A DNA stretch of 64,000 nucleotides from Candidatus Desulfofervidus auxilii (GTDB lineage: Bacteria > Desulfobacterota > Desulfofervidia > Desulfofervidales > Desulfofervidaceae), in NCBI GenBank assembly GCA_030262725.1, contig JAJSZS010000004.1:1-64000 (forward strand), written 5' to 3'. Below the pieces are notes generated by a model. That model saw only the letters and a list, made by a program, of their open reading frames with translations. It made no database searches and was not told the origin of the DNA. Positions 46,140-63,940 of this stretch are shown piece after piece. The translations under genes were made by a program, and so were the position numbers. Each line of letters starts with the position of its first letter. The stretch's first letter is position 1.

Positions 46140-47162
46140 TTAACCACCTTTTCCTGTATGACAGACAAAACAGCCACAGTCTGGGTCTGATGTGCCTGCT
46201 TTACACTCATTTTCATAATCCCAACGAAGAAGATCAGGATAAGGTGAACCATGTGGACGATGACAAGAAAGACAAGAAACTTGATCCTCTCCTGGTGTTA
46301 CAGTTGAGCTAGCTGCTGTCATACCTGTTAAAGTGCTTTCAAGTCTAGCTATAGGGGCTAAAGGATTATATGTTGTATAATTTGCATATTCACCACTATT
46401 TGGTAATGCAATATCTGATGGATGTCTTTTCCAATGCTCAGTATTTTCTCCATAAAATCCCCAATGACATGCAGCACAATACCTACTTATAGAGTGAGAA
46501 GGATTTGAATAATCCCCTGAACTAGCGGCACCACAATATTCATTATGGTCATTTGAGCTTACAGTATATTCCCAATCATCATCTTCTATACCTGCAACCC
46601 CATAAAAATTATAACTACCTTCCTGAAAAGTAGATGGGTGGAAATAGTCAAGACTTAAAAACCTATATTTAACCTCTTCATCATCACCTACAACTGGGCC
46701 ATTCTCATCTCCATGATGTTTTGGATTATGACAAAAGACACATTTAGTAAGCACCATATTGCCACCACCATGACAACTACTGCAGGTTTTACCACTCTCA
46801 AAACCTGGGGTTTGAGAAAAATTTGGATCTTGACTTACACCAGGAATAGCAGTTACATTGTGGCCACATTCATCACAGCCATGAGCTACCCAATAAAAAT
46901 TTCCACCTGCAAGGGTATTTGTTCCATAAGTTGGCTCAGTTTCAGAAAAGACATAAGGGGTAGTATTTGTACCATCATTTTCTCCTGTGTGACAACCAAC
47001 ACAGTTATTTATTAATAATGACTCATAAGGGCCTCCCCCCGAAAGATTTCCGCCTTGGCTATAGTGCATAGTATGACAATTTGAACAGACACCTGATACT
47101 TTCGCCATTGCCACTGCACCATAAAACAATATACATATTACAAAAATTATAACTTTTTTCAT
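46140..47162 (-). CDS. Seven-heme c-type cytochrome (cluster paralogue A)
   Basis: 340 residues with a signal peptide (KKVIIFVICILFYGAVAMA). Canonical heme sites are CSNCH, CVGCH, CSSCH, CVFCH, CAACH, CLSCH and CFVCH. A further CDECGH lies after GGNFYWVAHG and is probably not a heme site. The protein differs from the cytochrome at 62852-63904 at only about two dozen positions over some 230 residues in the central and C-terminal parts, pointing to a recent duplication. It is also related more distantly to the neighbour at 47226. A GAGGT ribosome site precedes the start, and a perfect hairpin separates it from the preceding gene. Likely periplasmic or extracellular electron carrier. Confidence 0.93.
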   Translation of the reverse strand: MKKVIIFVICILFYGAVAMAKVSGVCSNCHTMHYSQGGNLSGGGPYESLLINNCVGCHTGENDGTNTTPYVFSETEPTYGTNTLAGGNFYWVAHGCDECGHNVTAIPGVSQDPNFSQTPGFESGKTCSSCHGGGNMVLTKCVFCHNPKHHGDENGPVVGDDEEVKYRFLSLDYFHPSTFQEGSYNFYGVAGIEDDDWEYTVSSNDHNEYCGAASSGDYSNPSHSISRYCAACHWGFYGENTEHWKRHPSDIALPNSGEYANYTTYNPLAPIARLESTLTGMTAASSTVTPGEDQVSCLSCHRPHGSPYPDLLRWDYENECKAGTSDPDCGCFVCHTGKGG

Positions 47163-47225: not shown

Positions 47226-48380
47226 TTATTTTGTAGTATGACAGATAAAGCAGCCACCTATCTCATTGCGTGGATCATCAGAAGTACCTGCCTGCATAGC
47301 ATTATAATCCCACCTTAAGATATCATCATTAGGTGTTCCATGAGCACGGTGACAGGAAACACAAAGCACAATAGTATCATCACTAAAGGTCACTGTGTCA
47401 ATGGTCATATTAGCAGAAAGAGAAGCCCAACCTACAGGCGCAATCGGACTATAAGTACCTACTGTTGAGCCTGGATGACCATAACTTCTGTATTCAGAAC
47501 CAGCATCTGTATTTCCCATATCATAATCAGTTGGATGTCTAAGCCATGGATGACCAAAGCTACCATCATCCATACCTAAGTTACCAGTACCACTATGGAA
47601 ATCTCCATGACATTCAGCACAAAGGTAACTAATAGTCGCTGTAGAACTAATTGCATCACTATTTCTATCTTCACCTAAATAGACATTATGGTCAGAAGGA
47701 CTTACAGTTAATTCCCAATCATCATCTTCTATACCTTTAATACCAAGCAAGAAACGATAACTTTTACCAACAGTGGTTCCAGCTTCTGAATCATCATAAG
47801 TAGCCAGTTTTAAACAACTATCATCAGCATGATGAGCTCCATAAATACCTGCAAACGAACCTTCTTTATCAGGATCACCATGACAACCATAAGTACCAGC
47901 ACAAGTAAATTTACTCATATCCCAAGTAGCTGGACGACCATAACTTTCAGCCTGACTATAGCCAGGGGGCTCAGTAAAAGTAGTAGAACCTATACCAGAA
48001 ACATTATGACCTTTTGCATCTCCAACCGTGGCTGCCCAGTAAAAGTTACCACCTGCCAAAACTTCACCCATACCTGCATGCAATCCATCTGTTGTATAAT
48101 TTGGTCCACCTTGACTATAAACAACAGGAACAGTAGAACCAGCAACTGTCTTTGTCACAGCAGTACCAGTATCACTATGACAACCAAGACAAGTTGTAAT
48201 CAATAAAGCTCCTTGGGGTTCGGATAAAGGAGCCCCAGTTTCATCATAGGCCATAGGACTTCCACCTTGACTATTATGCATTGTATGACAGTTATCACAG
48301 CGCCCACTCACTTTTGCCATCGCTACCACACCATAAAGCAACATACACATTCCCACTATCAACATCACAACTTTTTTCAT
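47226..48380 (-). CDS. Multiheme c-type cytochrome with an unusual CX5CH site
   Basis: 384 residues from ATG 48380, chosen because AGGAGGTGA lies just upstream; an in-frame GTG at 48389 falls inside that ribosome site. A signal peptide ends near VVAMA. Canonical sites are CDNCH, CLGCH, CAECH, CVSCH and CFICH. At residues 160-167 the sequence is CAGTYGCH, where the paralogues have CSSCH, so this is either a CX5CH heme site or a lost one. The paralogues' CDxCGH is reduced here to GDAKGH, keeping only the histidine. A strong promoter lies upstream at 48427-48455, so this gene starts a two-cytochrome (plus marC) transcript. Confidence 0.92.
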   Translation of the reverse strand: MKKVVMLIVGMCMLLYGVVAMAKVSGRCDNCHTMHNSQGGSPMAYDETGAPLSEPQGALLITTCLGCHSDTGTAVTKTVAGSTVPVVYSQGGPNYTTDGLHAGMGEVLAGGNFYWAATVGDAKGHNVSGIGSTTFTEPPGYSQAESYGRPATWDMSKFTCAGTYGCHGDPDKEGSFAGIYGAHHADDSCLKLATYDDSEAGTTVGKSYRFLLGIKGIEDDDWELTVSPSDHNVYLGEDRNSDAISSTATISYLCAECHGDFHSGTGNLGMDDGSFGHPWLRHPTDYDMGNTDAGSEYRSYGHPGSTVGTYSPIAPVGWASLSANMTIDTVTFSDDTIVLCVSCHRAHGTPNDDILRWDYNAMQAGTSDDPRNEIGGCFICHTTK

Positions 48381-48426
48381 TCCCTTCACCTCCTTTCTTT
48401 ATTATTTTACATAATTCTCTATTTTT

Positions 48427-48693: not shown

Positions 48694-49584
48694 TTATTTT
48701 ATCTCAAATACCTGAATGCGATTATTACCAGTATCAACTACATAAAGTTGTTTTTTATGTAAAAGGACATAGCGAGGATAATAAAACTCACCTTCTTTCC
48801 AACCTTTTCTTCCTATCTCACTAATAATATTGCCATTTTTATCAAAAACAAAGACCTTACACTTATGGGCATCAAGGACATAAAGATTACCACCAGCATC
48901 TATTGCAAGACTTAACGGAAAAGCTAGATTTTTTAATGATAAAGAACGAACAAATTTCCCACTATTTTTCTCATAAATAAATACTTCTTTTTTTAAAGGA
49001 TCAAGAGCATAAAGGTATTTTTTAGTTAATGCTATATCTGAAAACCCTGTAGCATCTTTTGTTTTTATCTGTTTTAAGAATTTATATTCTTTTGGAGAAA
49101 AAACTAAGATACGCTTATTTGCTTTATCAATAAGATAAAGATAACCTTCTTTATCTAATTTCATATTGCCAGGAACAGGTTTTGGAGAAATATCATTTAA
49201 AGCAAGTGGCTTAATGATTTTTTTCTTTACATCAATAATTAAAACTGAATTTTCACCTTTATTGTTAACAATTAAAAGACCCTCTTTATCTCTAAGCATA
49301 CACAAGGGAAGTTTTAAACGACCTTCTGCATTGAATTGGGAAATAAATTTGTAATATTTTTTATGATAAGAAACAAGACGATGATTTAGTGTGTCAGTAA
49401 TATAAATTTTATTTCTTTTTTCATCCAAATAAATTGCTTGTGGTTGTTTAAAATTGCCAATTTCTTCTTCAGCGTAAATAATGGTTAAGAGTTTGGCTTT
49501 GGTAAAGGCATAGCAAGAAGTAAGAAATACAAAATGCAAAATGTAAAGTACAAAGCACAAAATAAGAATTTTTTTAATCTTCAT
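48694..49584 (-). CDS. Exported NHL-repeat protein of the cytochrome cluster
   Basis: 296 residues with an N-terminal signal segment (KILILCFVLYILHFVFLTSCYA); Cys24 could be lipidated but the lipobox is weak. Repeated blades follow: QPQAIYLDEKRNKIYITDTLNHRLVSY, MKLDKEGYLYLIDKANKRILVF, LAIDAGGNLYVLDAHKCKVFVFDKNGNII, and YPRYVLLHKKQLYVVDTGNNRIQVF. It is a six-bladed-type β-propeller. It begins 21 bp after the 16-heme cytochrome stop, with a GAGGTGA site, and appears to be the last gene of the large operon. Propellers of this kind commonly accompany porin-cytochrome conduits, where they may hold cytochromes together. Confidence 0.88.
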   Translation of the reverse strand: MKIKKILILCFVLYILHFVFLTSCYAFTKAKLLTIIYAEEEIGNFKQPQAIYLDEKRNKIYITDTLNHRLVSYHKKYYKFISQFNAEGRLKLPLCMLRDKEGLLIVNNKGENSVLIIDVKKKIIKPLALNDISPKPVPGNMKLDKEGYLYLIDKANKRILVFSPKEYKFLKQIKTKDATGFSDIALTKKYLYALDPLKKEVFIYEKNSGKFVRSLSLKNLAFPLSLAIDAGGNLYVLDAHKCKVFVFDKNGNIISEIGRKGWKEGEFYYPRYVLLHKKQLYVVDTGNNRIQVFEIK

Positions 49585-50815: not shown

Positions 50816-52729
50816 TTAATGACAATCCTGACAACGTCTTTCACCAAAAGGTTTATGTAGAACATATTTAAATAAAGCTTTATCTCTAGAACTATGAGGT
50901 GTATGACATTTGATACAATGCATCTTTGACATCTTTTTACCCAAATGTTTCTGCATCAATGTTTTATCCTTCAAATCATGACAGTTCTGGCAGAGTTTGC
51001 TGCCAGAAGCAACAAGTAACTTTGGCAATTTGCTATAATGGGCACGATGGCAAAGAGCACATTTACCTTCATCAATAGGCTTATGGATAAATGTTTCTGT
51101 CTCAGCCTTTATTATTATATCTTCTTCATGACAGGAAAGACAAAGCCCTTTCCAGGGACGATAAAGTTGATGGGAAATCTTGCTACCATGCGGACTATGG
51201 CAAATAGTACATTCTCCCTTCTTCAATGGGTCATGCACATTCTTTTCTTTTATCACCCTTTTTTCTATAGTTTTATGACAAGGATAACAACCCTCTGCCC
51301 CAATACGGATTAATTGGTCTGGATTATCAGATGCATGATGTTCATGACACTGCTCACACCTTCCACGTTTAAAAGGCGGATGTAAAACAGTTAAACCTTT
51401 TTTCATCGTTCCATGACAGTAAAAACAAAGCTCTTTATGTCTTACAGGGAAGAAAAATTTGTATGAAGCAGAATGAGGATTGTGACATTTGTAACACTCA
51501 CCTTTTTCAGCCGGTGTATGAACATTTATTTTTTTGAAACTTTTAGCAGTTTCTTTATGACACTTATAACAAAGCCCAGGTAAACTTTGCACTAAAATCC
51601 TTTTTTGTGCAGAAGCATGAGCATCATGACAGACAAGGCAATTTTCCTCATTTGCTGGTGGATGGCGATAAACTTTAGTAAATTTTTCTTTTTTATGACA
51701 TTCATAACAAATACCAGCTACAGGTTTTAAAAGCAATCTATCAGCATCAGCAGAATGTGGATTATGGCAAATAACACATTTTCCCTCATTTATGGGCTTA
51801 TGGACAAAAGAAAGTTTTGTCTTTTCTACCATAGACTTATGACAACTAAGACAAACTTCCTTTTCTTCTTTTGCTAATATACTAGCATGGTTGCTGGCAT
51901 GAGGTTTATGACAGATAAGACAGGATTCTTTTTCTAAAGGAAGATGTTTTTTTAAAGCATTAAAAGGAGGCTTTTTCTTATCATGACAACTATAACAAAG
52001 ATCATTACCTTTTATTTTAAGACCAAATGGGTTTTCTGCTTCAGGTCCTAAGTGACAGGTATCGCAATCTTGAATAGGCTTATGAGCATAGAGTTTAAAA
52101 AGAGCCTTTTCTTTACCACTGTGAGGGCTGTGGCAATCAATACAGTGATTACCGCTTACTTTATAATTAGCATGAGCTTTAACAAAATTAGACTTTTTAA
52201 TATCATGACAATCAAGACAAAGGATTTCTTTTGATTTTTTTAGACGATTTGCAATATTGGCATAATGAGGTAGATGGCATGTTTGACAATTTTTTGCAGG
52301 AGAATGAAGAAATGATAGGATAAATTTCTCAGATGTATGACAAGAAAGACAAGTTTCTTTTGGTCCTTTTACTAAAAGGAATTCATATGAGGCACTATGT
52401 GGATTGTGACACTTTAAACAATTTCCTTTTTCAAAAGGAGAATGAATCTTTTTAGCCTTAAGTTCTTTTAAATCTTTATGACATTCATAACATAGCTGTG
52501 GTAAAGCCTTATTAAGATAAACACCACCAATAAGACCATGGGAACGATGGCAAGCCTCACAATTTTTATTTTTGACTGGTGCATGAATTATTTTTTCTGA
52601 AAGAAATTTTTGAAGTTCTTTATCATGGCATTCAATACAACGCCTACCTGTTGTGATTCTTCTTTCTGGTTGTGCACAGGCAAAAACAAAGATAAATAAA
52701 AATAATCCAAACAATAAAACTTTTTTCAT
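50816..52729 (-). CDS. 26-heme c-type cytochrome lipoprotein
   Basis: 637 residues. The signal peptide ends in a lipobox VFAC (Cys18), so the protein should be lipid-anchored, probably to the outer membrane. I count 26 CxxCH motifs, one per about 24 residues, in tandem doubled-CxxCH units with CHxPH/CHxAH second histidines (CLKCHNPHSASY, CVICHNPHSAD, CYKCHNPHSASY). The units are clearly internally repeated, suggesting growth by duplication. The protein ends exactly at its last motif (CQDCH then stop). Its start overlaps the stop of the parvulin gene (ATGA). It is the most heme-rich product in the window and the likely electron wire of the proposed conduit. Confidence 0.95.
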   Translation of the reverse strand: MKKVLLFGLFLFIFVFACAQPERRITTGRRCIECHDKELQKFLSEKIIHAPVKNKNCEACHRSHGLIGGVYLNKALPQLCYECHKDLKELKAKKIHSPFEKGNCLKCHNPHSASYEFLLVKGPKETCLSCHTSEKFILSFLHSPAKNCQTCHLPHYANIANRLKKSKEILCLDCHDIKKSNFVKAHANYKVSGNHCIDCHSPHSGKEKALFKLYAHKPIQDCDTCHLGPEAENPFGLKIKGNDLCYSCHDKKKPPFNALKKHLPLEKESCLICHKPHASNHASILAKEEKEVCLSCHKSMVEKTKLSFVHKPINEGKCVICHNPHSADADRLLLKPVAGICYECHKKEKFTKVYRHPPANEENCLVCHDAHASAQKRILVQSLPGLCYKCHKETAKSFKKINVHTPAEKGECYKCHNPHSASYKFFFPVRHKELCFYCHGTMKKGLTVLHPPFKRGRCEQCHEHHASDNPDQLIRIGAEGCYPCHKTIEKRVIKEKNVHDPLKKGECTICHSPHGSKISHQLYRPWKGLCLSCHEEDIIIKAETETFIHKPIDEGKCALCHRAHYSKLPKLLVASGSKLCQNCHDLKDKTLMQKHLGKKMSKMHCIKCHTPHSSRDKALFKYVLHKPFGERRCQDCH

Positions 52730-54369
52730 TTATCACTCCCTACAAGCTCTTTATTTACCTTCTCTAGCGCTTCTTTGTCAATCTTTATTTTTGAAAGCCT
52801 TTTAAGCTCATTTAAATAAGTGACAACAAATTTATTAAACTTCTCAACCCAAATATCTTTTTTAACTTGCTTTTTTACTAACTTAAATGGTAAAGGTTCA
52901 GGAAATTTTTTATCTTCAAGCAATATAATACTATAATAGCGTCCTTCTTCTATAACTGGTGAAATCTCACCTGGTTTTAATGTTTTAATAACTTTTCTTA
53001 TGCTTTCAGGTAATTTATCTTCAGATATCCAACCTACAAGACCTCCTTTTTTAGCAGAATCACTTTTTGATTTTTTCTTAGCAAGTAAAGCAAAATCTGC
53101 TCCTGCCAAAAGTTCTTCATGAATATCTTCTGCTTCCTGAGCTGTAGAGACTTTAATTAAACGTATGTAATATTTTGCAGGAGACATATACTTTTCTTTT
53201 TTATGTCTTTCATAATATTTTTTCATTTCTTCTTCTGTAACAGTAATTTGAGGAGCAACAATTTTGCGCTTAAATTCGTTGACAAGCAGACTTATTTCAT
53301 AAATTTTTAACTTTCTTTTCAATTTTTTATCTTTTTTCAAGTAACTGCGACTTAATGCCTCCTGTTCTGCTATATGCACTTTAATCAATTCCTCCAACAC
53401 TTCCTTTTTAATATCGTCCATCTTTACTTTTATGTCCCAGCGTCTTTGCATTGCCTGATAGCCCCAAAGTTTTCTTTTTAAAATAGGCAAAAATTCTTTT
53501 ACATAGATAGGTTCTCCATTCACCCAGGCAATAATGCCTTGTATTTCTCTTTCAGGATCTAATTTTTCAAGAAGGTCTTTATTAACTTTTACTTTTGCTT
53601 TTTTTCGCCAATTATTTATTAATTCTTCTCTTTTAACCTTCTTTTTCTCTTTTAGCAATTTTCTTCGCATGCTTTTTTTTACTTTTTCAAACTTAGCCAT
53701 ATCAGGCTTTTTTATCTCCACCAATTTTATGATGTAAAAGCCTGAATCAGCTTCAATAATATCACTTATTTCTCCAGGACTTAGGGAAAAAACTGTTTTC
53801 TTCCACTTTTCTGGCATTCTTTCTAAAGGAATAAAACCCAAATCACCTCCTTTGGCTGCTTGAGGGTCTTCTGAGAACTTCTTTGCTACTTCTTTAAACT
53901 CCTCTCCTGCTTTAATGCGCTTTAAAGCCTCTTCTGCCTTCTTTTTATCTCTAGTAAAGATTTGATAGACATGAATTTTTGTATTTCTTTCTCTATATAT
54001 TTTCCTCAGTTCTTCATCTGTTATTGTGATGTCTTTTAATTCCTCCTCCCAAAGGGCATCAAGACACAGATTGCGTTTATATTCTTCAATTGCATTAAGA
54101 TAATCAGGCTCTTTATCCAAACCTAATCTTTTTGCCTCTTGGGCTATAAGATAATTTTCAATCATTCTTTGCAAAGCATTTTCAATTACATCTAAATTAA
54201 GCTTTCCTGCTGTTGTCCTACCACGCATCTGCATAAGAAGATGAAAATCAGAAAGGGCATTTTTAAAATCATCAACTTCAATTACTTCATCATTTACTTT
54301 GGCAAGAAAAGCAAAAAGAAGATTGGGAAATAGAATAAAAAGAATAATGAATAAAAAAGACTTTTTCAT
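52726..54369 (-). CDS. SurA-like periplasmic chaperone with two parvulin domains
   Basis: 547 residues with a signal peptide (SFLFIILFILFPNLLFA). An N-terminal SurA-like helical region precedes a parvulin peptidyl-prolyl isomerase domain at about residues 130-225 (VYQIFTRDKKKAEEALKRIKAGEEFKEVAKKFSED, then GGDLGFIPLERMPE and LSPGEISDIIEADSGFYIIKL). A second helical part and a second parvulin domain lie at about residues 390-485 (GGLVGWISEDKLPESI, LKPGEISPVIE). It probably assists folding of the neighbouring outer-membrane barrel or cytochromes. It lies 2 bp after the OmpA-like gene and overlaps the 26-heme gene by 4 bp. Parvulin genes are frequent companions of porin-cytochrome clusters. Confidence 0.93.
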   Translation of the reverse strand: MKKSFLFIILFILFPNLLFAFLAKVNDEVIEVDDFKNALSDFHLLMQMRGRTTAGKLNLDVIENALQRMIENYLIAQEAKRLGLDKEPDYLNAIEEYKRNLCLDALWEEELKDITITDEELRKIYRERNTKIHVYQIFTRDKKKAEEALKRIKAGEEFKEVAKKFSEDPQAAKGGDLGFIPLERMPEKWKKTVFSLSPGEISDIIEADSGFYIIKLVEIKKPDMAKFEKVKKSMRRKLLKEKKKVKREELINNWRKKAKVKVNKDLLEKLDPEREIQGIIAWVNGEPIYVKEFLPILKRKLWGYQAMQRRWDIKVKMDDIKKEVLEELIKVHIAEQEALSRSYLKKDKKLKRKLKIYEISLLVNEFKRKIVAPQITVTEEEMKKYYERHKKEKYMSPAKYYIRLIKVSTAQEAEDIHEELLAGADFALLAKKKSKSDSAKKGGLVGWISEDKLPESIRKVIKTLKPGEISPVIEEGRYYSIILLEDKKFPEPLPFKLVKKQVKKDIWVEKFNKFVVTYLNELKRLSKIKIDKEALEKVNKELVGSDK

Positions 54370-54371
54370 AA

Positions 54372-55490
54372 TTACTTTATCCTCACAGTGATCTCCACCC
54401 GTCTATTTTTCGCTCGACCATCAACTGTAGCATTATCTGCTATAGGATACCTCTCTCCATAACCTATAATGACTGTTTGATAAGGAGAAAGATTAAATCG
54501 TTTTAGAAAGAAATCTTTAATTATTTCTGCCCGGCGTAAAGATAATCTTATATTGTAGATTTCTGAACCAACATTGTCTGTGTGACCAGCAATAATAGCT
54601 CGTTCCCAAGGGTATTTTTTTAAACACCTTCCCACTTTTTCTAGTTCAGAATAATAGGCAGGAGAAAGAAAGTCACTATCAAAATCAAATCTTATCTGTA
54701 TTTTCTTTTCACCTTTACAGGGATCAATAGCTTTGGTCTTCCTTTTTTTAAAAAAGATAGGCTTTTGAGCAGCTAGCATTGTAAATCTTCTTTCAAACCT
54801 TTTTGAAATTTTTTTAATTTTTTTCTTAGCAGATTGTAAACTGTGTCTAATAACAGTTGGCTTAAGTTTTGTTAATCTCTTTTTTGTTCTACTTACCCGC
54901 CTTTTTATTTTCTCTTTTTTAGCTACTGCATAAGGGATTTCCTTAATCTTTATTGTTTCTATCAATTCATCCGCTACACGCTGAGTTAATTGAGGCAATG
55001 TTCTTACACGGGAGATGTTTAGAAATCTAACATAATCTTCTCCATTTTTTTCAATTGAAGCCTTCCAAAGCACTTCTGCATCTTCTGTAGAAACCATGCG
55101 CACAGAAAAATTTAAATAAGGGATCCCTCCTTTTTCTTCAAAAGTTAAAATTTTACCAAAAATAACAGCATCAATTTTATATCTTCTTTTAAGCAAAAGG
55201 AGCCTTGCACGATCAAGACTACTACCAATCTTTATTCTCTGTTCTACCATAAAATCAATAATGTTACCTAAGTCTTCAATCACAAAAAGATCTTTCTTTG
55301 CCAATTCAGCTATAAATATCTGAGTAACAATTTCTCTTGCCCAAGGATTAGTAGAAAGATTAGAAAATGGGAAAACAGCAACTTTTTTCACCCCTTTGAG
55401 TTCATAATAATCAACATAGTGATGTGAAAATGGAGAACTACAAGTAGTTAAAAAACAAAACATAAATATAAAAAATTTTTTAAAATTCAT
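54372..55490 (-). CDS. CsgG-like/OmpA-domain outer-membrane lipoprotein
   Basis: 372 residues. The lipobox LTTC places a lipidated Cys at residue 17. The first ~150 residues resemble the CsgG/LpoB-type fold (GVKKVAVFPFSNLSTNPWAREIVTQIFIAELAKKDLFVIE, then IDAVIFGKILTFEE and AEVLWKASIEK). A basic linker (residues ~190-255) leads to a C-terminal OmpA peptidoglycan-binding domain: IRFDFDSDFLSPAYYSELEKVG, IAGHTDNVGS, NIRLSLRRAEIIKDFF, and IIGYGERYPIADN ending with KNRRVEITV. It should tether an outer-membrane complex to peptidoglycan. It overlaps its upstream neighbour by 11 bp and is followed by the parvulin gene 2 bp later. Confidence 0.92.
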   Translation of the reverse strand: MNFKKFFIFMFCFLTTCSSPFSHHYVDYYELKGVKKVAVFPFSNLSTNPWAREIVTQIFIAELAKKDLFVIEDLGNIIDFMVEQRIKIGSSLDRARLLLLKRRYKIDAVIFGKILTFEEKGGIPYLNFSVRMVSTEDAEVLWKASIEKNGEDYVRFLNISRVRTLPQLTQRVADELIETIKIKEIPYAVAKKEKIKRRVSRTKKRLTKLKPTVIRHSLQSAKKKIKKISKRFERRFTMLAAQKPIFFKKRKTKAIDPCKGEKKIQIRFDFDSDFLSPAYYSELEKVGRCLKKYPWERAIIAGHTDNVGSEIYNIRLSLRRAEIIKDFFLKRFNLSPYQTVIIGYGERYPIADNATVDGRAKNRRVEITVRIK

Positions 55491-56997
55491 AATCCCAACC
55501 AGTAGGTAATTTTTTCTTTTTCTTTTTGCGTTTTTCTATAGTCTTGCCTTTAATAACTAAAGAATTTTTATATTCAGCTTTATTACCTGCAAAGTCTAAA
55601 GCTTCTGCTAAAACATAAAGTATTTCTGGATCTTTATCAGGCAAAGGTAATACAACTTCTTCTGGTGGATATCCCTCACCATTGGTTGAATAATAGATAT
55701 TATCTTCATTATCAGAAATACTCAAATGCCATTTAGAAACATTGGTTTTTTCTTTGCACTTAAGTTTAAATTTGACCTCTTTTTCTTTTAATTCAGCTGA
55801 TAAATTCAGTTTAGGAGGTGTTATATCAACTATAATCTTCTTTCTTTTTATCGTCGCTATATTCCCTGCCTTATCTTGACAAGCACCTTCAAGAAAATAA
55901 GTCCCCTCACTTACTTTATTAAATTGATCATCTTCTCCATGCCATGCCAAACCAAGAGGAAGCTCACCACCTCCTTCAAATCGTCGCACTATTCTTCCAT
56001 CAGCATCTCTAATTAAAAAACTCCAAAGTTTAATCTTATCTGGATGTAAAAGTGTAGGGAAGAAAATCATCATATCTTTTCTACCATCCCCATTTGGAGA
56101 AAAAATCACATTTTCATAAGAAATCCTTATTTTAGGAGGAGTATTATCTACTTCTAAAAAATGTCCTGTATCTAAAAAGCGAAAATGACCATTATTAGTG
56201 GCAAGTTTTAATTTTGCATAATATTTTCCTTCCTTATATGGAGCAGAGATAATTTTCTCCCAATAGCCATTTTCTTTTTTTTTCAAAGCCCATTTTTTAC
56301 CTCCTAAAAGAAGAAAGACCTTTTTAGGAGGCTTTTTAAGAGTAACTATCCTTAAAGATACATTTACTGAAGCACCACCCTGTACTAAAGAAGGAAAAAG
56401 AGAAAAATTTTCCAATGCAAATAAAGGTTTTTCTATAGGTTGTATCTTTTCAAATTTAATTTTTTTTGGAAATTCAGCTAAAAGTCTTTCTAAAGCATTG
56501 TCAATCAATTTATCAACAGATTTTATTTCACCCCGACAGAACCAAGAGATAAAATCTTCACTTGCAAGAGCTACATAATTTCCCCATAATACTGTGCCTG
56601 TCTCACTTGCCACTACCCTTAATCCAATCCCTATTTTAGGATGCTCACCGCTATCATAAAGGTCAACCCAGCTAATTACAACCGCATCTATACCAAAGAG
56701 TTTTTTTAACTCCTTAGCCTGAGCCTGGGTAACAACACCAAAGCGACGCACCCGATTTTGCAAAAAAAAGTCTTCTAATTTGGAAGGTAAAATGACATCA
56801 AAATTATATTTCTCTTTAAGTCTTTGAGCAATCTCAACCACAATTTCTTCAGGGACATCATTTTGACCACTTATATTATATAATGGAAAAAATGCTATTT
56901 TTTTTAAGCTTAGAATTTTTGAAGAAACTTCAACTGTAAAAATTAAAACAAATAGACAAACAAAAAATACATTTTTTAAGATAATGTTTTTAAACAT
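55480..56997 (-). CDS. Exported protein with CsgG-like N-terminus and FlgD/Ig-like repeats
   Basis: 505 residues with a signal peptide (NVFFVCLFVLIFTVEVSS). Residues about 28-180 repeat the CsgG-like pattern of the neighbours (LKKIAFFPLYNISGQNDVPEEIVVEIAQRLKEKYNFDVI, GIDAVVISWVDLYDSGE, TGTVLWGNYVALASEDF). The C-terminal half has immunoglobulin-like segments, including a FlgD-type one (ENVIFSPNGDGRKDMMIFFP, GLAWHGEDDQFNKVSEGTYFLEGACQDKAGN, VDITPPKLNLS). It is probably a periplasmic or surface assembly protein. It overlaps the 182-residue gene by 22 bp and the OmpA gene by 11 bp, so the three CsgG-like products are translated together. Confidence 0.85.
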   Translation of the reverse strand: MFKNIILKNVFFVCLFVLIFTVEVSSKILSLKKIAFFPLYNISGQNDVPEEIVVEIAQRLKEKYNFDVILPSKLEDFFLQNRVRRFGVVTQAQAKELKKLFGIDAVVISWVDLYDSGEHPKIGIGLRVVASETGTVLWGNYVALASEDFISWFCRGEIKSVDKLIDNALERLLAEFPKKIKFEKIQPIEKPLFALENFSLFPSLVQGGASVNVSLRIVTLKKPPKKVFLLLGGKKWALKKKENGYWEKIISAPYKEGKYYAKLKLATNNGHFRFLDTGHFLEVDNTPPKIRISYENVIFSPNGDGRKDMMIFFPTLLHPDKIKLWSFLIRDADGRIVRRFEGGGELPLGLAWHGEDDQFNKVSEGTYFLEGACQDKAGNIATIKRKKIIVDITPPKLNLSAELKEKEVKFKLKCKEKTNVSKWHLSISDNEDNIYYSTNGEGYPPEEVVLPLPDKDPEILYVLAEALDFAGNKAEYKNSLVIKGKTIEKRKKKKKKLPTGWDYEF

Positions 56998-57524
56998 TTT
57001 TGTATTAAAGTATAACTTACTTCTGTTAAACTTTTCTCACCTATACCAAAAAGGCGATTAAGTATTCCTCCGCCTTTCTCACTAGCACTTACCTGCCAGA
57101 TTACCTTTCCAGACTGAACATCAATTAATTTAAGAGAAATAGCTACTATAGCCAAAGAAATACCACCTGATTGTTCTGTTTTATACTCATCTACTGAGCC
57201 AGTAAAAACAGCTTGTACAGATAATCTTTGACCAATTTTTTTTATAAGAGCAGGCGTGATTTCAGAAGGTTCTCTAATTCTAAGTTCTCTTAAAACAGCA
57301 TCTACTTCACCTCGGTCTACTACTTCAAAAAGCTCTAGTTTAAGAAGTTCTGTCTCAAACACATCTCTTATTCTTTCATGAGCCAGATTATCCCGACTGA
57401 AATTGTGCAAAGGAAGAATAGCTACACGCTTTACATAAGAAATATCTGCTGTAGGATGAAGATAATAACGCACCCCAGAACCACATCCAAGTAAAACCAA
57501 TAGTAAAATGATTAGTCTTTTCAT
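56976..57524 (-). CDS. CsgG-like lipoprotein
   Basis: 182 residues. The signal peptide ends in LLGC (lipidated Cys14). The mature part is a single CsgG-like domain: VKRVAILPLHNFSRDNLAHERIRDVFETELLKLELFEVVDRGEVDAVLREL, then LSVQAVFTGSVDEYKTE and DVQSGKVIWQVSASEKGGG. CsgG family proteins form outer-membrane export pores or serve as accessory lipoproteins (FlgO/FlgT, LpoB). The missing extra transmembrane hairpins make a pore unlikely. An AGGAGC site precedes the start. It follows the β-barrel gene by 9 bp and precedes two other proteins with the same type of domain. Confidence 0.85.
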   Translation of the reverse strand: MKRLIILLLVLLGCGSGVRYYLHPTADISYVKRVAILPLHNFSRDNLAHERIRDVFETELLKLELFEVVDRGEVDAVLRELRIREPSEITPALIKKIGQRLSVQAVFTGSVDEYKTEQSGGISLAIVAISLKLIDVQSGKVIWQVSASEKGGGILNRLFGIGEKSLTEVSYTLIQKCLKTLS

Positions 57525-59594: not shown

Positions 59595-60971
59595 CTATTC
59601 ACCAGTTAAAATCAGAGCATAAGGTTCATTTCCTACAGAAATACGCTCAATTTCCTTTTCTCTTATCAAATCTATTACACTAACAGTGTTTTCTTTTAGG
59701 TTAGTTACATAAAGCAATTTTCTATCTCTGTCTAAAGCCAAACCACAAGGATGAGTACCAACAGAGATTCTTTTAAAAACTACATTGCTTAAAGGATTAA
59801 TAAAAGAAATATCATTACTTTTTTCTCCAGTCACATAAAACCAATTTTGAAGTCCTTCAATAATCCTAGCTGGGGAATTTGGGACAAAAATAGTTCGAAC
59901 TTCCTCTAAAAAAAGACGTTTCAAAACAGTTACAGTATTTGTTTGAGCATTTGAAACCAAAATATATCTATCTGTTACTATAAGATATCTTGGTTTTCCT
60001 CCAACACCTATTGTATGTACAACAGTATTATCATAAGTATCTATAACAGAAATATCATTAGAATAACTATTTGCTACATAAACATATCTCCCATTAGGGT
60101 CTGCAGCTATACCTATTGGGCGTTGTCCTACATCTATCTTTTTTACAAAGTGTTTTGCCTGAGCATCTATAACCAAGACAGCATTAGAACTTGTAGCAGT
60201 AACATAAAGATATTCTCTACCCATAACTGAAACTAATACTAATTCATTAAGCTCAACACCCATAGGACAGGAAATAGTATCCATTACCCGATTGCTCATC
60301 ACCTCTATAACTGAAATATTTTGAGAAATTGAGTTTACAACATAAAGGCGACTTTTGTCTTCTGAAAGCACCATACCTTTTGGGGATTTACCAACAGTAA
60401 TATTATCAATTACCTGATGTGTACCACGGTCAATAACTGAAATATAATTATCACCTGAATTGCTGACATAAAGCAAAAGTTGCTTTAAACCTGTCCTGCC
60501 CTGACCAATCTCCATTGCTAAAGTAAATGTATCATCCTTTATAGAATTTTCAGGATACCATGTTAAAAAAAGGCTTGTAGTCTGTTTTGGACGAATATTG
60601 ATAGAAACTGAAAAGATAAATAGTCCATTTTTTGAAAGAGAAAGAGGCTTATATTTTGAATAGGCTTCTTTTACTTTAAATGAAATTTTTTGATAAAAAC
60701 CTGCTGGCAATTGAATTTTGGCAAGTAAAATTTGTTTATTAAGAAGGGAAAGGGCATCTATTTTTTTTAGTGTTGGGGTAGAATTAAATGTTAAACCAGA
60801 CTTATCCTCTATCTGGATGGTCTCTAAAACGAATTTTACACTGACTGGGCGACCTACAGTTTGAAGGTATATTATCAACTCACCTTGTTTTTCAGATATT
60901 TCTCTAGAAAAAGGAACACAGCTAAGAATAAAAAATAAAATAAAAATAGAAAAATAAGAAATATATCTCAT
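59595..60971 (-). CDS. YVTN-repeat β-propeller lipoprotein
   Basis: 458 residues. The lipobox ILSC gives a lipidated Cys18. Residues about 22-165 are a β-rich domain, of which the later part resembles DUF4382-like folds (QLPAGFYQKISFKVKEAYSKY). From about 170 onward, seven YVTN-type blades repeat: LLLYVSNSGDNYISVIDRGTHQVIDNITVGKSPKGM, RLYVVNSISQNISVIE, YVYVANSYSNDISVIDTYDNTVVHTIGVG, and LLYVTNLKENTVSVIDL. Such propellers sit on the cell surface and bind proteins. It starts after TAGGAGGAAACT and ends 9 bp before the β-barrel gene, so they are in one operon. Confidence 0.9.
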   Translation of the reverse strand: MRYISYFSIFILFFILSCVPFSREISEKQGELIIYLQTVGRPVSVKFVLETIQIEDKSGLTFNSTPTLKKIDALSLLNKQILLAKIQLPAGFYQKISFKVKEAYSKYKPLSLSKNGLFIFSVSINIRPKQTTSLFLTWYPENSIKDDTFTLAMEIGQGRTGLKQLLLYVSNSGDNYISVIDRGTHQVIDNITVGKSPKGMVLSEDKSRLYVVNSISQNISVIEVMSNRVMDTISCPMGVELNELVLVSVMGREYLYVTATSSNAVLVIDAQAKHFVKKIDVGQRPIGIAADPNGRYVYVANSYSNDISVIDTYDNTVVHTIGVGGKPRYLIVTDRYILVSNAQTNTVTVLKRLFLEEVRTIFVPNSPARIIEGLQNWFYVTGEKSNDISFINPLSNVVFKRISVGTHPCGLALDRDRKLLYVTNLKENTVSVIDLIREKEIERISVGNEPYALILTGE

Positions 60972-60986: not shown

Positions 60987-61430
60987 TCACTTAAATGGGT
61001 TCACTGCCTTTATTTCTTTTATATTTTTAAAATCATTTACATTTATTGTATAAATGGTAGAAATTCCCTTACTGAGCATAGTAGCTACTAAAAATATATC
61101 AAAAAACCTTTGAGCACAAATATTATATTTATGCCCTAATTCAATAGCAATTTTTAATACTTCTTCTGTAGGATAAATTTTTCTTATAAAATCTGCTTCT
61201 AAATATTTCTTTACTTCTTCTTTAGCTACTTGTGGAGACAAAGGTTTTTCCACTCTTTTTCTGTCCGTTATAACAGCATAAAACTCAACAAGATTTTGGA
61301 TTGAGACATAAGTCTTTAAAATACCTTTTTCGGCTTTTTCTCTTAGTGCCTTGGCTTTACTATGAAAAGGAGAGGCTTTATTGGCTGCATAGACAAGAAT
61401 ATTAGTATCAAACAGAACTTGAACGTCCAT
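60987..61430 (-). CDS. PIN-domain toxin, VapC-like
   Basis: 147 residues. PIN-domain toxins are magnesium-dependent RNases. Active-site acids are visible as Asp8 in LFDTNILVYA, Glu in IQNLVEFYAVI, Asp in AQRFFDIFLVATML and Asp in TINVNDFKNI. The gene overlaps the antitoxin gene by 23 bp. Unlike many VapBC pairs, this partner resembles Phd/YefM. The pair separates the two 5'-most cytochrome genes of the cluster from the YVTN-barrel part, only 15 bp before the YVTN gene, so readthrough from the toxin gene may serve the barrel operon. Confidence 0.92.
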   Translation of the reverse strand: MDVQVLFDTNILVYAANKASPFHSKAKALREKAEKGILKTYVSIQNLVEFYAVITDRKRVEKPLSPQVAKEEVKKYLEADFIRKIYPTEEVLKIAIELGHKYNICAQRFFDIFLVATMLSKGISTIYTINVNDFKNIKEIKAVNPFK

Positions 61431-61714: not shown

Positions 61715-62842
61715 TTAAAAGTTAGAACTGCCATGATAGTGACATTCTGAGCATGGTTTTCCAGTATGATCTCTATAATGGCAACGCAAACAAAGTGTTT
61801 TCCAACCATCATGAGTATCTGCTGTAACATTAGTAATATTGCCATTCACTTCTTTTCTTATTAAATACTTATATGAATAAGAACCATGAGGTTCATGACA
61901 ATCCAGACAGGATAAGACATAATTAGATACAGCAGTTACATCATAAGGAGGCTTTATTATAGGTTGTCCATCACGATAATCTCTACTTCTTATTGCATTT
62001 CCATGTTTATCTGTATTCCAATTTATAGGGGTATGAGAAAGACCATAACTGCCCATATCATAAACATGACAGTCTTGACAGAAGCTAACATAATCAATAG
62101 TTTTTTGTGCTTGAGTATTTAAATCACAACTAGCACCATCTGGTTCACAAGCAGTAGTACTATTATGACGATAAGGTGCCTGATATTTATTAGGAGCATA
62201 ATCATTCATTGTCTGAGTCCAAAGCTCATTATGAGCAGAAGGTTTAGATATGGCAGAATAATTAGGATCACCTGGATTTTCTTTATTTCTTCTGGCTAAA
62301 TGAGGATTGTGGCAGGCACAACAGGGATTTGAATCTTCTTTGAACCAGGAAGAAAAATTTGTTTTAGCAAAGTCCCAAACATCATAAAGATTATGGTAAG
62401 AATTTTGATTGAATGCCTCATATATACTGTCAATGCTAGAATCAGTATATCCACCAAAAGTGCGGCTATAATTATAATTAGTAAAATTTGGTGTTTGTAA
62501 ACTAGTTGCATCAGTGTAACAATGACAATAAAAGCAAAAATTATCAGATTGTTCATAAGAACCTGTAGATTTACCACTAAAATTGTCTGCAAAAAGACAG
62601 AATGCAGAAGCATCTCCTGATGAAGGCGTTGGCTCTCCTCCATCAATACTTGCATGCTGCTCATGACAATGAGCACAGTTACCTCTAGCATAGCCACTTA
62701 ATTCAGTCACATCTCTTTTTACACCATAACTGTTATTACCATGGGCAGAATTAAGATAAGGGCCAGCTATGACTATGTGGCTAGTGTTTAAAACCAAAAT
62801 AATTGAGATTATAAGAGAAAGTTTTTGAATCCAATCTTTCAT
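61715..62842 (-). CDS. Seven-heme c-type cytochrome, second family
   Basis: 375 residues with a signal peptide (IISIILVLNTSHIVIAG). Heme sites are CAHCH, CFYCH, CCACH, CQDCH, CLDCH, CLRCH and CSECH, seven in all. It begins with AHGNNSYGV and includes ARGNCAHCHEQHAS, DCHEPHGSYSYKYLIRKE and a dense C-terminal pair (LCLRCHYRDHTGKPCSECH). The loops are rich in Asn, Tyr and Ser, typical of surface-exposed cytochromes. It is not closely related to the 340/350-residue pair. It begins 9 bp after the preceding cytochrome stop with a TAGGAGAG site, so both are on one transcript. Probable outer-surface or periplasmic electron carrier. Confidence 0.93.
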   Translation of the reverse strand: MKDWIQKLSLIISIILVLNTSHIVIAGPYLNSAHGNNSYGVKRDVTELSGYARGNCAHCHEQHASIDGGEPTPSSGDASAFCLFADNFSGKSTGSYEQSDNFCFYCHCYTDATSLQTPNFTNYNYSRTFGGYTDSSIDSIYEAFNQNSYHNLYDVWDFAKTNFSSWFKEDSNPCCACHNPHLARRNKENPGDPNYSAISKPSAHNELWTQTMNDYAPNKYQAPYRHNSTTACEPDGASCDLNTQAQKTIDYVSFCQDCHVYDMGSYGLSHTPINWNTDKHGNAIRSRDYRDGQPIIKPPYDVTAVSNYVLSCLDCHEPHGSYSYKYLIRKEVNGNITNVTADTHDGWKTLCLRCHYRDHTGKPCSECHYHGSSNF

Positions 62843-62851
62843 AAATCTCTC

Positions 62852-63904
62852 CTAATCCTTTGTTGTATGGCAAACATTACACCCATTTGTTCCACTACCT
62901 GGCCATCCTTGATAATCCCAACGCAATATATCTGGATAAGGAGAAGCATGTGGACGATGACAGGAAAGACAAGAAACTTGATCCTGTCCTGGTGTTACAG
63001 TTGAGCTAGCTCCTGTCATACTTGTTAAAGTGCTTTCAAGTCTAGCTATAGGAGCTAAAGGATTATATGTTGTATAATTTGCATATTCACCACTATTTGG
63101 TAAGGCAATATCTGATGGATGCCTTTTCCAATGCTCAGTATTTTCTCCATAAAATCCCCAATGACATGCAGCACAAAATCTACTTATAGAATGAGATTTA
63201 CCTGAATAATCCCCTGAACTAGCAGCACCACAATATTCATTATGGTCACTTGAGCTTACATCATATTCCCAATCATCATCTTCTATACCTGCAACCCCAT
63301 AAAAATTATAACTACCTTGCTGGAAAGTATATGGATGGAAAGAGTCAAGGCTTAAAAACCTATATTTAACTTCCTCATCATCACCTACAACTGGGCCACT
63401 ATCATCTCCATGATGTTTTGGATTATGACAAAAGATACATTTAGTAAGCTCCATATTACCACTACCATGACAACTACTGCAGGTTTTACCACTCACAAAA
63501 CCAGGGGTTTGAGTAAAATTTGGATCTTTACTTACGCCAGGAATAGCAGTTACATTATGACCACATCCATCACAGCCATTGGCTACCCAATAAAAATTTC
63601 CACCTGCTAATGGATTTGTTGGCTCTTGGGTATTATAAACAATGGGAACACTGCTTTTTCCACTTCCTGCACCAATTTCCTTTATGGTTTGACTATCGTT
63701 TGAAGAATGACACCCTACACAGTCATTTACTAATAAATATTCTCTTGGCCCACCTTTCTCCCAATAAGATGGCCATGGACTTTGACTGGAATGCATTGTA
63801 TGACAATTTGAACAAACACCTGTTACCTTAGCCAGAAGATAGGTAGGAAATAAACAAATAATTAATAAAAATACTATTAAATAACTTTTTTTTTGTTCAT
63901 ACAT
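62852..63904 (-). CDS. Seven-heme c-type cytochrome (cluster paralogue B)
   Basis: 350 residues from ATG 63904. The frame is open to 63940, but a promoter (TTGACA/17/TAAAAA) covers that stretch and puts the transcript start at this ATG, which also begins the signal peptide (YLIVFLLIICLFPTYLLA). Heme sites are CSNCH, CVGCH, CSSCH, CIFCH, CAACH, CLSCH and CNVCH; CDGCGH is additional and probably not heme. It closely matches the cytochrome at 46140-47162 in the same orientation, 16.7 kb away. The N-terminal fifth and the last 20 residues differ most. It is the first gene of the whole cytochrome cluster. Confidence 0.93.
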   Translation of the reverse strand: MYEQKKSYLIVFLLIICLFPTYLLAKVTGVCSNCHTMHSSQSPWPSYWEKGGPREYLLVNDCVGCHSSNDSQTIKEIGAGSGKSSVPIVYNTQEPTNPLAGGNFYWVANGCDGCGHNVTAIPGVSKDPNFTQTPGFVSGKTCSSCHGSGNMELTKCIFCHNPKHHGDDSGPVVGDDEEVKYRFLSLDSFHPYTFQQGSYNFYGVAGIEDDDWEYDVSSSDHNEYCGAASSGDYSGKSHSISRFCAACHWGFYGENTEHWKRHPSDIALPNSGEYANYTTYNPLAPIARLESTLTSMTGASSTVTPGQDQVSCLSCHRPHASPYPDILRWDYQGWPGSGTNGCNVCHTTKD

Positions 63905-63911
63905 CACATTT

Positions 63912-63940
63912 TTTTTACTGCCTATCTTTATTTTTGTCAA
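63912..63940 (-). promoter_or_regulatory. Promoter of the cytochrome cluster, leaderless geometry
   Basis: Minus strand: TTGACA (63940-63935), 17 nt, TAAAAA (63917-63912), 7 nt, ATG 63904. The last 60 bp of the window contain no gene. Confidence 0.55.

Follow-up and report, generated by a model that had tools for sequence, protein, structure and literature searches.

Skennerton 2017 (PMC5539420) described an operon that encodes a beta-propeller protein, a 16-heme and a 26-heme cytochrome and a PPIase, presented trees of each, and named SEEP-SRB1, Ca. Desulfofervidus auxilii and Desulfuromonadales as its carriers. A role for the 26-heme family in an electron-transfer operon has been proposed in print. 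Murali 2023 (PMC10553843) proposed the porin-cytochrome conduit OetABI for ANME partner bacteria and listed Desulfofervidales among those possessing it. The family is among the conserved cytochromes proposed for electron transfer between archaea that oxidise methane and the sulfate reducers partnered with them; it occurs in metal-reducing Geobacter too. GSU2495 of Geobacter sulfurreducens has 26 heme motifs and is named OscI (PMC12977616, PMC13194489), 26 motifs are also given for Gbem_1124/GSU2495 in PMC2996986, and PMC3495685 and PMC10599522 touch on mutation and expression. A similar operon has been reported from a lake bacterium (PMC12246660).

Here we show that a gene within a 64,000-nucleotide stretch of the Ca. 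Desulfofervidus auxilii genome (hereafter the window; Table 1) encodes a member of this published 26-heme family, in the four-gene core known from ANME partner bacteria. As in the core of Skennerton 2017, 26 CxxCH motifs are accompanied by an adjoining 16-heme gene, and the block also contains PPIase and beta-propeller genes. Homology to 26-heme members covers the greater part or the whole of the protein in 53 homologues (about 29–62% identity), a set compiled without the sequences of Skennerton 2017 itself. The preliminary description of this DNA could be read as announcing an undescribed wire, whereas the family is already in print (PMC5539420). The likeness extends to GSU2495/OscI, compared here by its published description, which has 26 motifs with GSU2494 (OscJ) and an eight-gene block alongside, as in the window; three Geobacteraceae homologues (L007–L009) align along the whole or the greater part of their sequence but, unlike the window protein, have no lipobox. 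The osc block consists of eight genes with an OmcS-like hexaheme gene upstream; the window has a block of corresponding make-up, and the small cytochromes near it, of 5–7 CxxCH, may include a counterpart of the OmcS-like gene. The window also resembles OetABI, as that conduit is described in the main text of PMC10553843, in having a cytochrome lipoprotein, a second cytochrome and a candidate barrel in one cluster.

Table 1. Features of the 26-heme cytochrome and its gene block (positions in the window)
Feature	Position	Strand	Remarks
26-heme c-type cytochrome, 637 aa	50816..52729	-	single open frame; 26 CxxCH
Lipobox VFAC, residues 15–18	52676..52687	-	predicted lipid-anchored Cys18
First cap segment, heme 8–heme 9	52052..52144	-	residues 196–226
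Second, terminal cap segment, heme 25–heme 26	50819..50917	-	residues 605–637
Last heme motif CQDCH and stop TAA	50816..50833	-
16-heme cytochrome, 398 aa	49606..50802	-	signal peptide without lipobox; one cap, at hemes 8–9
NHL-type beta-propeller protein	48694..49584	-	conserved core
5-CxxCH cytochrome	47226..48389	-	downstream of block
7-CxxCH cytochrome	46140..47162	-	downstream of block
PPIase (PpiC/SurA type)	52726..54369	-	conserved core; overlaps 26-heme gene start by 4 bases
OmpA-domain protein	54372..55490	-	variable block member
Exported-looking protein, 505 aa	55480..56997	-	conserved in block
LpoB/CsgG-like protein	56976..57524	-	conserved in block
Candidate outer-membrane beta-barrel, 683 aa	57534..59585	-	by position likely the published porin-like member
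YncE/YVTN-type beta-propeller protein	59595..60971	-
7-CxxCH cytochrome	61715..62842	-	of cluster
7-CxxCH cytochrome	62852..63940	-	of cluster

The reading of the open frame and residue shuffling bear out the 26 CxxCH motifs in 637 residues that had been counted beforehand, 2000 shuffles giving a mean of 0.41 and a maximum of 4 motifs. The internal doubled-CxxCH repeats that had been noticed by eye are also real: the distances between motifs alternate (about 23 residues to one side of each pair and 21–28 to the other), the doubled-CxxCH domain is matched along the chain by both Pfam and NCBIfam, and Paired_CXXCH_1 of Pfam scores 396.7 bits. Likewise upheld are the lipobox (VFAC), whose Cys18 is the sole cysteine outside the CxxCH motifs, and the stop directly behind the final heme motif, CQDCH being encoded by the last five codons with TAA next. 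The mature protein has a mass of 70.7 kDa without hemes, or 2.7 kDa per heme, and the precursor contains 32 histidines outside the motifs.

Homologues were drawn from 39 relatives, from 395 genomes of the phylum (51 of which matched at E <= 1e-60) and from named genome contigs, the last of which gave five loci, including four full-length relatives. With the window's own protein counted, the resulting set has 54 distinct full-length sequences; the 1e-60 cut-off leaves shorter or more distant relatives under-sampled in it. Four sequences were left out: L015 (a duplicate of the L006 protein), L019 (incomplete at a contig end, 21 motifs) and the 23-motif L093 and L094. Fifty-three of the 54 have 26 CxxCH and the remaining one has 25 plus one CX4CH. 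Outside the motifs 26 histidines are invariant in all 54, enough for bis-His ligation of every heme, and in 53 sequences hemes 1 and 26 are separated by a span of 609.8 +/- 4.5 residues (range 599–621, CV 0.7%). Three genomes each carry two differing 26-heme genes, which lie on separate branches of the tree (G013, L016/L033; G194, L078/L088; G300, L056/L073). A plasmid search returned two weak records.

The tail past the last heme is 0–9 residues long in all 54 homologues and zero in three of them, so that ending at or just past the last heme is a trait of the 26-heme family. It had been argued that large cytochromes usually extend beyond their last motif. A short tail is not unusual, however: the five other ORFs in the window with at least two CxxCH end 3–7 residues past the last motif, and among 58 other complete ORFs with at least four CxxCH in the fetched loci the tail is at most 5 residues in 24, at most 10 in 32 and zero in one. 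An exact zero tail is thus uncommon and a short tail ordinary among multiheme ORFs. The absence of a single residue beyond the final motif could still suggest that the gene is truncated or its stop erroneous, with a C-terminal domain missing, and homologues with a longer conserved C-terminus had been named as the sign of this. None of the 54 has one, all ending within 9 residues of the same heme, and the downstream gene is in order, its start lying 13 bases past the stop behind an AAGAGG site; we looked for signs of a sequence error at the stop (50816–50818) and, given this start and these homologues, saw none. We give truncation practically no credence.

The preliminary description further proposed lengthening by unit duplication, a modular wire whose heme number would change by whole units among homologues, and such a wire might possibly polymerise. 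The strong internal repeats speak for it, as do remote relatives with 18 (L020), 23 (L093, L094) and at least 35 motifs (L022, 1–2460, whose frame is open at the locus edge). Within the family, however, the heme sites number 26 in 54/54 at a constant span, and the protein is far more densely packed with heme than the filament protein OmcS, for which 7.5 kDa per heme is given in PMC7096707. Nothing in the data points to recent lengthening within the 26-heme family, and we consider a growing or polymerising wire very improbable. Since remote relatives have other heme numbers, units may have been gained or lost deeper in the superfamily. The two 23-motif relatives (L093, 834–2807; L094, 663–2636) have a 55-residue tail and no strong match to the cap segment described below.

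What the repeats do represent was analysed through the inter-heme linkers, which fall into two alternating classes. In comparisons with 52 homologues, 454 of 1300 best matches of window linkers keep their ordinal position (chance, 1 in 25), the numbers being 22–25 of 25 inside the order and 3–13 of 25 outside it. An attempt to date the repeat duplications from these ordinals was abandoned, the pattern being too mixed. Duplication of a whole nine-heme module (hemes 1–9 = 18–26) was also considered, since an offset of 17 gives the highest mean linker similarity (17.5) of the 22 offsets listed. The signal is confined to the last linkers (7/24 and 8/25); without the cap linker the mean falls to 14.2, against 13.5 +/- 1.5 when linkers are permuted within their classes, a value that 6700 of 20000 permutations reach, and this duplication was rejected. 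The internal repeats represent an ancient scaffold of doubled CxxCH units, the heme number of which is now constant within the 26-heme family.

Two linkers, those between hemes 8 and 9 and between hemes 25 and 26, are distinctive. They score 39–40 against each other, the second-best partner of the first linker reaching 19, and we refer to them as cap segments. A cap profile built from the 26-motif proteins scores at least 33 bits in 53/53 26-motif ORFs, twice in 52 of them, and is found once, always at hemes 8–9, in 34/34 ORFs with 15 or 16 motifs, the latter alone being a result independent of the profile's construction. A simple account of the C-terminal position of the last heme is, therefore, that the chain ends on a cap segment that is also present internally. 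The shared cap also offers a place to cut for structural work. In the accessible text of the papers on the 26-heme family we found no description of the cap, of the 26 invariant histidines or of the fixed span, and a literature search for terminal heme motifs brought up nothing about the family, which is not proof of absence.

The doubled-CxxCH scaffold is common to the window protein and the MtrA/DmsE decahemes, which have ten hemes and a longer tail. The decahemes examined differ from it further in having no cap at hemes 8–9, DmsE/MtrA-like sequences scoring 12–21 bits against the cap profile. Apparent ten-heme carriers of the cap turned out to be incomplete 16-heme genes or a fragment of the 26-heme gene, and a cap in true decahemes was rejected. 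TIGR03508 (MtrA/DmsE decaheme) gives 295.8 bits against a cut-off of 192.2, a whole-protein score made up of six matched stretches, and assignment to this ten-heme type was rejected, given the 26 motifs. Among solved structures no close one was found: a single-sequence search at E 0.001 gave one decaheme chain and nothing else, and this is the best match (2e-19); we take this chain (PDB 6r2q) to be MtrA of MtrCAB, although its PDB label reads otherwise. AlphaFold2 models of the 26-heme and 16-heme proteins, with four homologues each, had mean pLDDT values of 28.8 and 31.4 and were unusable.

Where the protein resides is described differently in different papers. In Skennerton 2017 (PMC5539420) the core proteins are said to be attached to neither membrane, and GSU2495 is listed as periplasmic in a table for G. 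sulfurreducens; PMC10599522, too, gives it as periplasmic, and reports its upregulation on Fe(III) oxide in a strain deficient in omcB. The soluble status inferred in PMC5539420, with which we compare by description rather than by its sequences, stands against a lipobox in the window protein and in 38 of the 54 homologues, including all five of the window's clade. These calls are judgements by eye and not those of a signal-peptide program: a script filter gave 38, after which L046, L049, L052 and L089 were taken out and L006, L048, L078 and L083 brought in, with the total unchanged. The other 16 have a plain signal peptide, and 14 of them fall into one well supported clade of the tree that includes the Geobacteraceae. 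Membrane attachment, as predicted from these N-termini, appears to be a property of branches, and such a branch-wise distribution may account for the disagreement among the papers.

Taking these observations together, we consider it rather probable that the 26-heme protein, with its fixed length, relays electrons at the outer membrane together with its 16-heme neighbour and a filament of OmcS type or a porin system. The features on which this proposal is built are the 26 c-type heme sites, the 26 invariant histidines and the constant length, together with the position directly before the 16-heme gene, the export signal and the lipobox of its branch. The mature protein would be anchored to the outer membrane by its N-terminal lipid, and its 26 hemes would form a continuous bis-His chain. 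Along this chain electrons would move among periplasmic carriers, the 16-heme protein and a surface part, for which the candidate barrel and OmcS-type or 12-heme cytochromes could serve. Electron flow would probably be inward, from a partner or another outside donor, in a presumed sulfate reducer. The C-terminal heme, with which the cap segment closes, lies at the chain's end and probably serves there as a natural site of exit or docking. With a constant 26 hemes, 26 partner histidines and one length, a vaguely conceived ‘big wire’ gives way to a testable proposal, that of a part of set length.

Several published observations weigh against such a relay: the disputed location, the wild-type phenotype listed in a table of PMC9248073 for a mutant of GSU2494 (the 16-heme neighbour), and reports on OmcS maturation, to which the 16 of 54 homologues devoid of a lipobox may be added. 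In PMC12977616 and PMC13194489 (citing Shen 2025) the block GSU2500–GSU2493 is linked to maturation and secretion of the OmcS nanowire, so that electron carriage could be secondary. The 26-heme protein might then be mainly an assembly factor in the osc machinery, the companion of omcS, its hemes serving redox help or heme supply and not a respiratory trunk line. A PPIase and an LpoB/CsgG-like protein in the window block fit this reading, yet 26 hemes, each with a partner histidine available, suggest electron transfer over chaperoning, and we regard a chiefly assembling function as unlikely.

A different placement of the protein would follow from PMC10553843, where OetB is described as a cytochrome c lipoprotein that faces the cell exterior and is accompanied by a porin and a periplasmic cytochrome. 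The window protein has the trait of a cytochrome lipoprotein (VFAC at Cys18), the 16-heme protein lacks a lipobox, and the block has a candidate for an OetI-type barrel, albeit one without a family match. The 26-heme protein may accordingly be OetB itself, the surface-facing lipoprotein of the conduit, located outside the cell and not in the periplasm. However, the main text of that paper gives no heme numbers for OetA or OetB, a well supported clade including the Geobacteraceae is without lipobox, and a lipobox is by itself silent on which face of the outer membrane is occupied; we entertain the identification with OetB as a possibility, and only tentatively.

We also suggest, with considerable doubt, that the 26-heme protein could be a ruler wire of fixed length spanning the whole periplasm, its N-terminus lipid-anchored at the outer membrane and heme 26 at the free tip for docking. 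MtrCAB, in which MtrA and MtrC together hold 20 hemes, has a length of about 170 Angstrom, and the periplasm measures about 200 Angstrom (PMC7096707). On that scale a straight row of 26 hemes would extend over about 220 Angstrom, and the arithmetic allows a ruler. If true, a length-setting role would explain why heme number and span have stayed constant across the 54 homologues despite drift to about 30% identity.

In the downstream direction the gene order is PPIase, 26-heme, 16-heme and NHL propeller. A PPIase homologue lies upstream of the 26-heme gene in 14/14 neighbourhoods compared, a propeller homologue downstream in 11 of the 14 (no match was seen in G021 and G058, and the contig of G002 ends within the neighbourhood), and another multiheme ORF follows the 26-heme gene directly in all 54 loci. 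In genome G058 an extra 5-motif frame lies between block genes (L072, 5025–6155). The candidate barrel, LpoB/CsgG-like and propeller genes keep the same order in two genomes of the same family (G001, G003) and occur with changes elsewhere. The candidate barrel has no Pfam match; it ends in a C-terminal Phe and has 21 amphipathic stretches compared with 11.9 in shuffles (z 3.4), z being 1.5 to 4.5 for six of its homologues and -0.7 to 0.9 for three control proteins. Since aprA and dsrA score above cut-off in the same genome, the host is probably a sulfate reducer; genes of the aprA/dsrA type are also found in disproportionating bacteria.

In the 16-heme neighbour the heme number is nearly as constant as in the 26-heme protein, with 16 CxxCH in 27 of 33 homologues and 15 CxxCH plus a CX4CH in the gap in the other six. 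No convincing lipobox was seen among these 33, the one filter match not being of the lipoprotein type on reading. The CX4CH occupies the same place (heme 14) in L040–L045, so that a non-standard heme site has become fixed in one genome group; in the 26-heme protein of L017 a CX4CH replaces CxxCH at heme 1. Within the cytochrome cluster of the window lies a 147 aa frame (60987–61430), the start of which presumably resembles a PIN-domain protein of the toxin–antitoxin kind. Finally, two 12-motif cytochrome genes follow just beyond the window end (L060, 4061–4921 and 4933–5775); like pairs occur in G001, G003, G013 and L006, and the pair is perhaps the OmcX-like pair of the literature.
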